A DNA stretch of 64,000 nt from positions 124,001 through 188,000 of the forward strand of contig NZ_KB891252.1 in the NCBI RefSeq assembly GCF_000373365.1. The letters run 5' to 3'. Shown in pieces: positions 46,247 to 52,549 of the stretch (position 1 is the first letter of the stretch; the number at the start of each line of letters is the position of its first letter). The notes below the pieces were generated by a model. That model made no database searches. It was given only the letters and a program-made list of their open reading frames with translations, and had not been told where the DNA came from. Made by a program: the position numbers and the translations under genes. The DNA is from Parafrankia discariae (GTDB lineage Bacteria > Actinomycetota > Actinomycetes > Frankiales > Frankiaceae).

Positions 46247-46804
46247 ATGCGCGGTCTCCTGGTGATTGGACACGGCTCGCGGCGGGCGGAGGCGAACGCC
46301 ACGGTCGTTGAGCTCGCGCGCGCGCTGGCCGGTGCCAGCACCGACAGCCCCACCTCAGCCCCCGACAGCGGGGCCGGCGGGAACGGCAGGGAGCGCGGGG
46401 GCCACGGAGACCACGGGGGCGGCGCCTTCGGAGACCCCGGAGAGCGCGGGGGCGGCGGAGAGCGCGGGGGCGGCAGCGGCGGCCCGGCCGCTGCCTGGGA
46501 CGCGGTGGAGCCGGCCTTCCTCGAGATCGCCCGGCCGGACATAGCGGAGGGCTACGCCGCGCTGGTCCGCACCGGCTGTTCGGAGATCGTGGCGCATCCC
46601 TTCTTCCTGTTCGACGGGAACCACACGAGCCGCGACATTCCGGATGCCCTGGCCGCGGCGCAGGCGGACCACCCGGGGACGAGCTGGACGGTCACCCGGC
46701 CACTCGGGCTGCACCCGGGGGTCGTGCGGGCCGTGCAGGCCCGTATCGAGGACGCGCTGCACCAGGTCGCCACCATCCCCGCCACGGCGCCGGCGCACTC
46801 CTGA
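46247..46804 (+). CDS. CbiX/SirB-type sirohydrochlorin chelatase
   Basis: 185-aa class II chelatase domain that inserts Fe2+ (siroheme) or Co2+ into sirohydrochlorin; iron is more likely next to sulfite reductase genes. The ATG at 46247 (MRGLLVIGHGSRRAEANATV) has GGAG upstream. The metal histidine is in GHGSR (residues 8-12), the second region is EIVAHPFFLFDGNHTSRDIPDAL, and the middle has EPAFLEIARPDIAEGY. A Gly-rich insertion of about 50 residues (starting GASTDSPTSAPDSGAGG) is absent from short SirB proteins. It is convergent with the CobA-HemD gene. Confidence 0.85.
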   Translation: MRGLLVIGHGSRRAEANATVVELARALAGASTDSPTSAPDSGAGGNGRERGGHGDHGGGAFGDPGERGGGGERGGGSGGPAAAWDAVEPAFLEIARPDIAEGYAALVRTGCSEIVAHPFFLFDGNHTSRDIPDALAAAQADHPGTSWTVTRPLGLHPGVVRAVQARIEDALHQVATIPATAPAHS

Positions 46805-48678: not shown

Positions 48679-49350
48679 CTAGTGGATGCCGCATTCCGTC
48701 TTGGTCGTGCCGGCCCAGCGACCCGCGCGGCCGGCGCCGCGCTGCGTGCACGGCCAGCAGCCCACCGACTCGTAGCCGTCGGAGAGCAGCGGGTTGACGA
48801 TCACGTTGTGCTCCTGGACGTACCGGTCGACGTCCTCGTCCGTCCAGGTGGCCAGGGGGTGGATCTTGACCTTGCCGCGGCGCTGGTCCCAGCCGACGAC
48901 CGGCAGGCTCTTGCGCCCGGCGGACTCCACCCGCCGCGAGCCGGCCGCCCAGGCCCGGTAGGGAGCGAGCGCGCGGTCCAGCGGGACGATCTTGCGCATC
49001 CGGCAGCACAGGTCCGGGTCGCTCTCGTAGAGCCGCGGCCCGTGCACGGCGTCCTGCCCGGCGACGGTGAGCTGCGGGCTGGCGCTGATGATCGGCAACG
49101 AGTAGGTGTGCGCGACCGCGTCCCGGGTGCCGATGGTCTCCGCGAAGTGGTAGCCGGTGTCGATGAAGACCACCGGGATGTCCGTGCGGATGCGCGCGAG
49201 CATGTCGACGAGGACCGCCTCGGCCATGGACGCCGCGACGACGAGACCGGTACCGAACTCGTCGGCGGCCCACTGGAGGATCTCCTCCGCCGGGGCGCCC
49301 TCGAGCTCGTCGCCGGCCCGCAGTGCGCGGGCCTTCAGCGCGGCATCCAT
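48679..49350 (-). CDS. cysH: Adenylylsulfate (APS) reductase, 4Fe-4S type
   Basis: Reduces activated sulfate to sulfite with thioredoxin. 223 aa, ATG at 49350 (MDAALKARALRAGDELEG). Substrate loop AASMAEAVLVDML and VVFIDTGYHFAET are present. The cysteine pairs LCCRMRK (about residue 115) and GCWPCTQR (about 198) form a 4Fe-4S site, which marks APS-type and not PAPS-type enzymes, and the catalytic KTECGIH closes the protein. The start shares a base with the stop of the zinc-ribbon gene, so translation is coupled. The ATP sulfurylase genes (cysDN) are not in the window. Confidence 0.93.
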   Translation of the reverse strand: MDAALKARALRAGDELEGAPAEEILQWAADEFGTGLVVAASMAEAVLVDMLARIRTDIPVVFIDTGYHFAETIGTRDAVAHTYSLPIISASPQLTVAGQDAVHGPRLYESDPDLCCRMRKIVPLDRALAPYRAWAAGSRRVESAGRKSLPVVGWDQRRGKVKIHPLATWTDEDVDRYVQEHNVIVNPLLSDGYESVGCWPCTQRGAGRAGRWAGTTKTECGIH

Positions 49351-49568
49351 CAGTTCTTCTCCTCCACGTCCGACGGCGCCACGACGGTGCCGTTCGCCGA
49401 ACCTGTTCTGGCTGTCGCCAGCGCAGTGAGACTGAGCCGGAAGGCGCGCCGGCAGGACCGGCACGACCAGTGCCCGTGGCCCTCGCCCGTCCCGCCCGGC
49501 GCGGGCTCGGGCACGAGGTCCTCGTCACCGCAGTAGGGGCAGTAGAACGGGACGGCGCGGGCGCTCAC
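49350..49568 (-). CDS. Small zinc-ribbon protein between sulfite reductase and APS reductase genes
   Basis: 72 aa from the GTG at 49568, which overlaps the sulfite reductase stop (GTGA); its own stop overlaps the cysH start. Two CxxC pairs, YCPYCGDED (residues 9-17) and SCRSCRRAF (about 35-43), can bind one zinc. Streptomyces has a small Cys-rich gene at the same position of its sulfate operon, which supports it as real and functionally linked. The exact role is unknown; a partner or electron-transfer helper for the two reductases can only be suggested. Confidence 0.75.
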   Translation of the reverse strand: MSARAVPFYCPYCGDEDLVPEPAPGGTGEGHGHWSCRSCRRAFRLSLTALATARTGSANGTVVAPSDVEEKN

Positions 49569-51361
49569 GTCGCGCCGCCCTTGGTCTGGCCCTCGGCCGG
49601 GCCGGCCGTGGCGGGGCCAGCCGTGGCAGGGCCACCCGAAGCGGAGCCACCCGCGGCGGCCCCGGCCCCGGTGAGCAGCGCCTCGTCCGCGTGCTCCGCC
49701 CAGTCGGCGAAGGTGTCACCGTCGGACCGGTGTTCCTGGTAGGTCTCCAGGAGGCCCACGACGTAGTCGAGCAGGCCGTCGGCGGTCACCTTGAGACCAC
49801 GGGACTTCCGGCCGAGCCGGGAACGGGTACCCAGGTGGCCACCGAGGTGGACCTGGAACCCCTCGACCATCTCGCCGTTGGCGTCCGGGACGAGCGAGCC
49901 CTTCAGGCCGATGTCGGCCACCTGGAACCGGGCGCAGGCGTTCGGGCAGCCGTTGATGTTGATGCCGATGGGCTCGGTGAAGTCGGGCAGCCGGCGCTCC
50001 AGCTCGACGATGAGGTCGCGGGCGTTGCCCTTGGTCTCGACGATCGCCAGCTTGCAGAACTCGATGCCGGTGCAGGCCATCGTGCCGCGGCGGAAGACGC
50101 TCGGCCGCACGACCAGGTCGAGCGCGGCCAGCTCGGCCTCGAGCCCGTCGACGCCCTCGCCGGGGACGTCCAGGATCACCAGCTTCTGGGTGGTGGTCGC
50201 CCGGATCCGGCCCTGGCCGAACCGGTCGGCGAGGTTCGCGACGGCGGTCAGTGTCGTCCCGGTCAGGCGGCCGGCACGCGGCGCGAAGCCGACCGCGAAC
50301 AGGCCGTCGCGCTGCTGGTGGACGCCGATGTGGTCGCGGCCCTCGTTGCGGGGCGGCAGCGGCGCCGGGCCGTCCGGCAGCGCCGCGTCCAGGTACTCCT
50401 TCTCCAGGGTCGAGCGGACCCACTCGACGCCCATGTCGGCGACGAGGAACTTCAGCCGCGCCCTGGTCCGCATCCGCCGGTAGCCGTAGTCGCGGAAGAG
50501 CCGGATGACGCCGTGCCACACCTCGGGCACCCGCTCCGGGGTGACGAAGGTGCCCAGGCGCACGCCGAGCTTCGGGTTCGTCGACAGACCGCCACCGACC
50601 CACAGGTCGTACCCGGGGCCGAGCTCGGGGTGCACGACGCCGACGAAGGCGATGTCGTTGATCTCGTGCAGGGTGCACTGGTCGGGGCAGCCCGACATCG
50701 CGCTCTTGAACTTACGGGGCAGGTTCGACAGCGTGGTGTCGCCGACGAACCGCTCCACCACCTGGTCGATGACGCCGGTGGCGTCGATGACCTCCTCGGC
50801 GTCCACCCCCGCCAGCGGGCAGCCGAGGATGACACGCGGGGTGTCGCCGCACGACTCCTCGGTGGTCATCCCCGCCGCCTCGAGCGCCCCCCAGATGGCC
50901 GGGACGTCCTCGATGCGGATCCAGTGCAGCTGGATGTTCTGGCGGTCGGTCACGTCGGCGACGTCCCGCCCGTAACGGGTGGAGATGTCGGCGATGATCC
51001 GGAGCTGTTCGGAGGTCATCCGCCCGCCGTCCAGGCGGATGCGCTGCATGAAGTAGCGGTCGTCGAGCTCCTCGGGCTCGAGGACGGCCGTGCGCCCGCC
51101 GCTGATTCCCGGCTTCCGCTGGGTGTAGAGCCCCCACCAGCGGAACCGGCCGCGCAGATCCTGCGGGTCGATCCCGTCGAACCCCGTGTGCGGGTAGAGG
51201 TTCAGGATGCGCTCGCGCACGGCGAGGCCGTCCTGGTCCTTCTTCATCCGCTCGTTGGGGTTGAGCGGCTCGGAGTAGCCCAGCGCCCATTGGCCCTGTC
51301 CCTTGGGTCGGGACGGGCTTTGCGGGCGCGCGGCACGCGGGGGTCGAGCAGGAGAAGTCAT
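49565..51361 (-). CDS. sir: Ferredoxin-dependent sulfite reductase (NirA/Sir type)
   Basis: Six-electron reductase for sulfite to sulfide, with siroheme and 4Fe-4S. 598 aa, ATG at 51361 with GAGAGA nearby. Cluster/siroheme cysteines are in ACTGIEFCKLA and NGCPNACARFQVADIG (C-x5-C ... C-x3-C). Other conserved parts are NPNERMKKDQDGLAVRERI at the N-terminus, DVTDRQNIQLHWIRIEDVPAIW and KFKSAMSGCPDQCTLHEINDIAFVG. The last 40 residues are a Gly/Ala/Pro tail. Placement beside cysH favours sulfite over nitrite. It is probably regulated by the leader peptide upstream. Confidence 0.93.
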   Translation of the reverse strand: MTSPARPPRAARPQSPSRPKGQGQWALGYSEPLNPNERMKKDQDGLAVRERILNLYPHTGFDGIDPQDLRGRFRWWGLYTQRKPGISGGRTAVLEPEELDDRYFMQRIRLDGGRMTSEQLRIIADISTRYGRDVADVTDRQNIQLHWIRIEDVPAIWGALEAAGMTTEESCGDTPRVILGCPLAGVDAEEVIDATGVIDQVVERFVGDTTLSNLPRKFKSAMSGCPDQCTLHEINDIAFVGVVHPELGPGYDLWVGGGLSTNPKLGVRLGTFVTPERVPEVWHGVIRLFRDYGYRRMRTRARLKFLVADMGVEWVRSTLEKEYLDAALPDGPAPLPPRNEGRDHIGVHQQRDGLFAVGFAPRAGRLTGTTLTAVANLADRFGQGRIRATTTQKLVILDVPGEGVDGLEAELAALDLVVRPSVFRRGTMACTGIEFCKLAIVETKGNARDLIVELERRLPDFTEPIGININGCPNACARFQVADIGLKGSLVPDANGEMVEGFQVHLGGHLGTRSRLGRKSRGLKVTADGLLDYVVGLLETYQEHRSDGDTFADWAEHADEALLTGAGAAAGGSASGGPATAGPATAGPAEGQTKGGAT

Positions 51362-51874
51362 GAGATCTCTCGGTGAGCAGGGTCCACGACGGCGTCGAAC
51401 GCCGGCGCGGGCGGAGTTCAGCGGGAGCGGCGACAGCCGGCGCTGGAGACGCGCAACAGGTCGACGTGCAGACGTGCGACCAGGCGGAGGTCGACGGGGC
51501 AGACGTCACCCGGCCGCGACGCGAGCGCGCCGCGAACGCCGGACGGACCGTACGAACGGTGCGGCCCGGCTGGACGGTACGGGTCGGACTGGCCGAAGCC
51601 GGGGTGCGCCGACGGTGCCGACGGCACCGCGGGGGCAACGGGCATGCGCCAGCTGACGTCGTTCCCAGACCGTGACGACCCGGCCGGCGGGAACGCGCCA
51701 GCGCGCCGGTGACGGGCGACCGTTCGCCCGACCGACGGCTCCAGCAGGTGGACCCGGGCAGTCACGAGAGCAATGTTCCCACAGATGACGCCCCGACGTC
51801 GTGGATGTGTCGTCACACCCCATCCGGGTCACAGTCCAGACACAACGCGCGAACCACCAGGTTCGTTCGGGGGT
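51362..51874. other. Upstream region of the sulfate-reduction operon
   Basis: 513 bases between the sulfite reductase start and the response regulator stop, both on the minus strand. It contains the leader peptide frame and should hold the operon promoter in about 51650-51870, where AT-richer bases occur near 51770-51860. A SAM or cobalamin riboswitch was not recognised. Confidence 0.45.
51418..51645 (-). CDS. Probable cysteine-responsive leader peptide upstream of sulfite reductase
   Basis: A minus-strand frame ending 57 nt before the sulfite reductase start closes with LVARLHVDLLRVSSAGCRRSR. The core HVDLxRVSSAxC matches, from memory, the short actinobacterial proteins annotated as putative leader peptides before sulfur-assimilation genes, where a ribosome slowed at the terminal cysteine codon is proposed to control downstream expression. 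The conserved part is 51433-51483 with the Cys codon at 51433-51435. The start is unclear: the nearest canonical codons are a GTG at 51627 and the ATG at 51645, giving about 69-75 aa, longer than usual (about 25-35), and a non-canonical closer start is possible. Only the C-terminal core should be trusted. Confidence 0.6.
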   Translation of the reverse strand: MPVAPAVPSAPSAHPGFGQSDPYRPAGPHRSYGPSGVRGALASRPGDVCPVDLRLVARLHVDLLRVSSAGCRRSR

Positions 51875-52549
51875 TCAGACGAGGCGCGGGCGCCGGCACA
51901 TCTGCCGGAGCCGGTCGAGCAGCGCGCCGGTGGACAGATCCTTCTCCATCAACTCGTCCGCGCCGAGCGCCATGACCTCGTCGCGCAGCGCGTTCTCCGA
52001 GAAGCCGGTGAAAATCACCACCCGCGCGTCGGGCGCGGCCATCCGCACGTGCGGCAGGGCGCCGATGCCGTCGAGCACGGGCATCGCGACGTCCAGGAGG
52101 ACCAGGTCGGGCGCGGTCCGGGTGACGACCTCGACGGCCTCCGCCCCGTTCGCCGCCCGGCCGACCACCATGAAGTCCGGCTCGGTGTCGAACAGGAGGC
52201 AGAGGAGCTCGCGCAGGCCGTCGGCGTCATCCGCGATGACGACACGGAACGGGCCGGCCCGGAACCGGCCGCGCACGGCCGCCTCGACCTCGGGGACACC
52301 CACCCCGGTCTCGACGACGCCCGTACCGATTCCGGGAAGCCCCGCACCGACTCCAGGGAGGCCGGCACCCGCGATGCCAGCCCCGGGGAGACCGACTCCG
52401 TTGGCGCCGACGCTTGTGGCGCCGACTCCGGGGGCGCCGACTCCGGGGGCGCCGACTCCGGGGGCGCCGACTCCGGGGGCGCCGACTCCGGGGGCGCCGA
52501 CTCCGGGGGCGCCGACTTCAGCGTCCGTCGACGGCCGGCAGTCCATCAC
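51875..52549 (-). CDS. Response regulator receiver protein with VGAPG-repeat N-terminus
   Basis: Stand-alone receiver domain of about 120 residues at the C-terminus. Acidic pair in VVIADDADGLRELLCLLF, phospho-acceptor Asp in DLVLLDVAMPVLDGIG, Thr in VVIFTGFSE and Lys in ELMEKDLSTG are all present; no DNA-binding output domain follows. From the GTG at 52549 (ATG at 52546) the protein has 224 aa, with an N-terminal repeat of GVGAP units (about residues 12-45) and Gly/Val/Pro-rich sequence to about residue 88. A GTG at 52276 (VRGRFRAGPF) would give a 133-aa plain receiver, so the repeat may be untranslated leader. Both options are open. No histidine kinase is adjacent. Confidence 0.75.
   Translation of the reverse strand: MMDCRPSTDAEVGAPGVGAPGVGAPGVGAPGVGAPGVGAPGVGATSVGANGVGLPGAGIAGAGLPGVGAGLPGIGTGVVETGVGVPEVEAAVRGRFRAGPFRVVIADDADGLRELLCLLFDTEPDFMVVGRAANGAEAVEVVTRTAPDLVLLDVAMPVLDGIGALPHVRMAAPDARVVIFTGFSENALRDEVMALGADELMEKDLSTGALLDRLRQMCRRPRLV
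52421..52517. repeat. 15-bp tandem repeat, six perfect copies plus 7 bp
   Basis: GCCGACTCCGGGGGC is repeated at 52421, 52436, 52451, 52466, 52481 and 52496, with GCCGACT to 52517. On the coding strand each copy encodes Gly-Val-Gly-Ala-Pro. Perfect identity implies recent slippage or expansion; the period is a multiple of three. Confidence 0.95.

Follow-up and report, generated by a model that had tools for sequence, protein, structure and literature searches.

The window analysed here is a stretch of 64,000 nucleotides from Parafrankia discariae, and all coordinates are positions within it. On its minus strand lies the sulfite reductase gene sir; behind it, in the same orientation, come a small ORF resembling a zinc ribbon, then cysH, then a fusion of tetrapyrrole methylase and HemD. 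The operon is preceded by a leader, and the features discussed below are the following:

48679–49464, minus strand: cysH, PAPS reductase (Pfam PAPS_reduct), whose real start is probably internal to the ORF as listed
49350–49568, minus strand: small zinc-ribbon-like ORF (CPYC...CRSC) of 72 aa, recognised from its sequence
49565–51361, minus strand: sir, ferredoxin-type sulfite/nitrite reductase (Pfam NIR_SIR, NIR_SIR_ferr)
51418–51765, minus strand: leader ORF of 115 aa plus stop, most likely with a leaderless GTG start (frame kept over ten distinct lengths, no in-frame stops, GC3 above GC2)
51418–51483, minus strand: leader core LVARLHVDLLRVSSAGCRRSR and stop, above the NF042934 cut-off and kept before sir across the class
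51433–51435, minus strand: conserved Cys codon TGT, found as TGT in 121 of 122 distinct cores
51773–51783, minus strand: promoter-like box TGTGGGAACAT with an ANNNT-type -10 element, 7 nt ahead of the leader GTG

A Pfam search of the 72-aa zinc-ribbon-like ORF returned no match. Directly upstream of the leader lies a response-regulator receiver gene (51875–52549, minus strand), whose longest ORF includes a repetitive GVGAP-rich N-terminal stretch. Past the end of the operon, a CbiX-type protein with a long Gly-rich insertion is encoded on the opposite strand (46247–46804, plus strand).

A sequence-only reading of this DNA had placed a frame with an HVDLxRVSSAxC core just before sir and likened it to short actinobacterial leader peptides found ahead of sulfur genes. 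Both claims hold. The core is encoded on the minus strand, its TGA stop occupies 51420–51418, 56 nt lie between the stop and the sir ATG (51361, minus strand), and the single Cys codon of the core, UGU, stands four sense codons ahead of the stop. The putative leader peptide family NF042934 matches the last 32 codons with 29.7 bits and the same place with 29.3 bits in a search of the genome (cut-off 27), which puts the core far beyond chance. The whole 132-aa longest frame reaches 25.9 bits, under the cut-off, and automatic annotation would therefore probably miss the leader. The mycobacterial Ms4527A profile, NF042936, gives the window leader 27.5 bits against a curated cut-off of 45; the core holds one Cys in place of the several Cys codons near the ORF end that mark this family, and a search of the genome with this profile found no match at E <= 1e-4. 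Across the class, the same profile retrieves loci with LVARRHVDFKRVCSCCCLP and, below these, intermediates that grade into the single-Cys type, and for this reason the leader and the Ms4527A cores look homologous. The comparison of sequences points to a known kind of element, the actinobacterial cysteine attenuator, in a lengthened single-cysteine form with a re-assigned start.

Conservation of the core was followed at two depths. In the Frankiaceae, 30 loci were retrieved through a sir search and all carry the core before sir, 28 by the strict pattern and the remaining two as variants recognised by eye (H to Y in L041, HVD to HID in L048). From the genome contigs of named actinobacteria 80 loci were taken, and the core precedes sir in 73 of the 78 with readable upstream DNA. 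Streptomyces leaders mostly read MSGTGIALVSRRHVDLGRMSSAIC..., with an ATG 12 codons ahead of the core H. In the leader frame, pN/pS of the core is 0–0.28, and the other frames give higher values wherever the ratio is computable. On this comparative evidence the core peptide is under strong purifying selection, and a real small coding sequence ahead of sir is confirmed. The two checks suggested by the sequence-only reading, conservation of the core upstream of sir orthologues and synonymous-rate constraint in the leader frame, thus both came out in its favour.

The leader before sir has relatives in its own genome of 7.89 Mb, where the NF042934 search finds six places above the cut-off and several weaker ones. 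About 8–12 such leaders are estimated, mostly ahead of sulfur genes. The genes following the paralogous leaders are mostly concerned with sulfur acquisition: a DUF4395 and rhodanese pair, TauD, a Cys/Met PLP enzyme, an ABC permease, a luciferase-like monooxygenase (presumably of the SsuD type), a cupin, and a short-chain dehydrogenase followed by a TauD-like gene. The weakest matches precede mixed gene types, and some of them may be chance matches.

The most constrained element of the core is its cysteine codon. Outside the genome studied, TGT occupies the leader Cys position in 109 of 110 distinct cores. In sir at the named loci, 12 of 536 Cys codons are TGT and 98% are UGC; the difference from the leaders has p of about 1e-108, a value that overstates the contrast because the sequences are related. 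A separate, independent pattern scan of 394 Actinomycetes genomes found TGT at 276 places or more, spread over 152 genomes, and TGC at 4 places in 4 genomes, and the reversed pattern used as a control gave 0 matches. Other core codons are slightly AT-richer than the background (GAT 23% vs 3%, CAT 14% vs 2%), which is far from 99%. Neighbouring bases are ruled out as the cause, since both the base ahead of UGU and the codon behind it vary among the cores, and the constraint seems to lie on the UGU codon itself. The hairpin predicted around the codon (hairpin A, below) does not account for it alone, as several of the paralogues have TGT without the CAGC...GCTGA arms. A general nucleotide motif AGC...TGT was also rejected: AGC hardly varies within the sir-enriched set, several non-sir paralogues replace it with TCC or TCG, and TGT alone is therefore general. 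Such near-total fixation of UGU across a whole bacterial class appears to be previously undescribed; a literature search of partial coverage found no report of it.

The tRNA genes found in the genome number 46 and include one tRNA-Cys, with the anticodon GCA, so that UGU must be read by wobble. It is possible, and we offer it tentatively, that leaders of the Actinomycetes sense cysteine via one obligatory UGU, which the only tRNA-Cys(GCA) would read by wobble and the conserved nascent-chain motif HVDLxRVxSAxC would present, with codon identity taking the place of a codon run. The near-absolute UGU, set against 98% UGC in the sir genes, would then be a clue to how a single codon suffices. A stronger role for the peptide is somewhat unlikely: HVDLLRVSSAG could act in the exit tunnel as an arrest peptide, stalling the ribosome at or after the Cys and sensing cysteine or another sulfur metabolite, with codon starvation being secondary. 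At least 12 residues are conserved class-wide while synonymous change is tolerated, unlike in codon-run attenuators, and the conserved H, D and R sit 6–11 residues ahead of the Cys. Such a distance is in the range usual for contacts with the tunnel. However, the mycobacterial relatives gain Cys codons, the response reported for them is to Cys codons, and arrest alone leaves the UGU codon unexplained.

The start of the leader was sought by comparison within the Frankiaceae. The leader frame is open and in register up to GTG 51765 (GTG or ATG in relatives) in 28 of 28 tested loci. From the start codon to the core H the distances are 72, 81, 114, 138, 141, 144, 180, 186, 270 and 297 nt, each divisible by three, and frame 0 contains 0 stops in 1311 codons compared with 36 and 23 in the other two frames and a mean of 12.7 in mononucleotide shuffles (zero stops in 0 of 1000 runs); the loci behind the length and stop counts are related, and the counts are not independent. 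The spacers between the leader stop and sir represent all three residues modulo 3, some of the longer ones resting on an automatically chosen sir start. A box resembling TGTGRRANCAT mostly lies 6–7 nt before the GTG or ATG (28 Frankiaceae loci, four genera); in the window, no strict sigma-70 consensus match was found. Around this box a CACAAC...TGTG-like pattern, a possible regulator site, is seen in the Frankia and Pseudofrankia groups (L027–L050); in the window it is weak, at about 51773–51810.

In the N-terminal part of the leader GC3 exceeds GC2, and pN/pS is 0.56–0.72, lower than in the other frames; for Frankia the difference is small (0.72 vs 0.83 and 1.08 in the alternative frames). 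Since these ratios are only mildly below one and the Frankia value is near that of one alternative frame, the coding status of this part rests mainly on frame preservation. Together, the upstream box, the ten in-frame lengths, the stop-free frame and the GC3 and pN/pS of the N-terminal part make the leaderless GTG 51765 the most likely start, with a product of 115 aa. In a leader of this extent the N-terminal residues evolve fast and vary in number, and the C-terminal core, HVDLLRVSSAGC, is fixed. The gene model can be corrected to the 115-aa form with the GTG start, which automatic annotation would probably miss. The sequence-only reading had given the leader an extent of 51418–51645, equivalent to a start at the in-frame ATG 51645. 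This codon lies within an insertion common only to the window and its closest relative (G003) and was rejected as the start. The same reading took the flanks to be non-coding, which fails on the upstream side, where the frame stays open in register to GTG 51765 in all 28 loci. Its further suggestion, that the leader is long or uses a non-canonical start, most likely stands in the first part, given GTG 51765 and the box in relatives, and the non-canonical codon is unneeded.

Initiation at CTG 51483 or nearby would give a short leader of ~21 residues and leave the upstream in-frame region untranslated. Leaders of the class are mostly 22–35 aa, and all six congeneric sequences have the CTG at the position of the ATG-CTC of Frankia. 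Against it stand the frame kept over ten lengths, the lack of in-frame stops and the box before the upstream GTG or ATG. The CTG is less well supported than the upstream GTG, and we retain it as an improbable rival. Of the related leaders elsewhere in the same genome (L001–L004, L006–L011, L015), several have clear nearby ATG or GTG starts.

The RNA around the end of the leader can fold locally, and three hairpins were considered:

51419–51445, minus strand: hairpin A (CAGCG...CGCTG), predicted around the Cys codon and the stop
51385–51409, minus strand: hairpin B, in the spacer between the leader stop and sir, with changes on both sides in 5 of 9 pairs
51352–51369, minus strand: hairpin C (GAGA/TCTC), weak and spanning the start of sir, with 4 pairs, a single compensatory change seen in a single sequence, and low predicted probability

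Covariation over the three helices together scores 0.194 vs 0.112 in shuffles, with 0 of 500 shuffles as high, although the shuffles do not preserve the relatedness of the sequences. Hairpin A is nearly invariant and so offers no covariation signal to judge by. In the sir leaders (L021–L150; window 51418–51423) TGA mostly follows an NGC codon, and the residue encoded there changes (R, G, C, S). Many sir leaders also have CAGC near the Ser codon, and this is no more than suggestive of a GCTGA end conserved as RNA, possibly pairing with that CAGC. No terminator-like site was found within 51300–51900, so that the locus departs from a classical attenuator in this respect, and an Rfam search of 51200–52000 with a limit of E <= 1 came back empty. 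The idea that a paused ribosome simply unmasks the ribosome-binding site of sir was rejected, as the predicted accessibility of the sir start is unchanged on leader masking (means 0.46–0.48); masking barely shifts the mean predicted probability of hairpins B and C. It is very improbable that the conserved stretch is an untranslated structured RNA or protein-binding element, as hairpins A and B and the fixed TGT triplet might suggest, given that third positions vary while residues hold, that different copies encode Arg by CGN or AGG and Ser by AGC or TCC/TCG, that pN/pS is near 0 in the leader frame only, and that Rfam offers no match.

A translated leader of the cysteine-attenuator type (NF042934, a homologue of Ms4527A) is the preferred and likely reading. 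It precedes the sir operon, most likely begins at the leaderless GTG 51765 with 115 aa, and would raise sir expression through pausing at UGU. Comparison among the loci shows the open frame, selection on the core, near-invariance of UGU, covariation in hairpin B and the presence of related leaders before other sulfur genes. When charged tRNA-Cys drops, ribosomes would pause at the leader UGU; wobble decoding would help, and the conserved nascent chain may do so too. Such a pause would alter the fate of the downstream RNA, at the level of structure, translation or termination, leading to higher expression of sir and the genes behind it. Stalling at the leader under cysteine shortage would mirror the mycobacterial homologues, and by this analogy the cysteine-sensing step is well motivated. 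Homology to the mycobacterial system and the gene order suggest that sir, the zinc-ribbon gene and cysH would be controlled jointly. Besides the unchanged predicted accessibility of the sir start and the lack of an intrinsic terminator, the Cys count speaks against the mechanism: most leader copies have only one Cys codon, and the mycobacterial ORFs that were studied contain several. Models associate many regulatory codons with sharper control (PMC1183508).

Several described systems resemble the leader. For M. smegmatis, PMC9031893 and PMC13236596, citing Canestrari 2020, describe cysteine-responsive attenuation by such ORFs, in which limitation is sensed by ribosomes. The mycobacterial leaderless ORFs of the Ms4527A type share the core with the window leader, relatives with LVARRHVDFKRVCSCCCLP score above the NF042936 cut-off, and in both systems a GTG or ATG start lies a short way upstream and several sulfur loci per genome are served. 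The window leader differs in having one Cys, not three or more, in its score below the NF042936 cut-off and in its most likely length. Its closest assignment is NF042934, annotated as cis_reg_atten, where the core scores above the cut-off and the longest ORF of the frame below it.

More distant cases differ mainly in their cysteine codons. The relevant passages of a 2005 comparative study (PMC1262725) predict Cys-run leaders before mycobacterial cys operons and note the lack of terminators. The cys leaders predicted there in Mycobacterium, Propionibacterium and Bifidobacterium share with the window leader a short ORF, Cys near the stop, a place before sulfur genes and no obvious terminator; they differ in their runs of Cys codons and in partly other operons, and these passages make no mention of a UGU constraint. 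The uORFC-8-2 motif upstream of cysS in Rhodobacterales (PMC8632094) is likewise a uORF with Cys codons and is thought to sense Cys-tRNA, but it has tandem Cys codons, dominated by UGC, and an intrinsic terminator. This kind of switch is known from mycobacteria; the window copy is unusually long, and the class-wide UGU constraint is apparently new. The leader described here would extend the cysteine-sensing system to bacteria of the Frankia family, in a class where most copies manage with a single cysteine codon.
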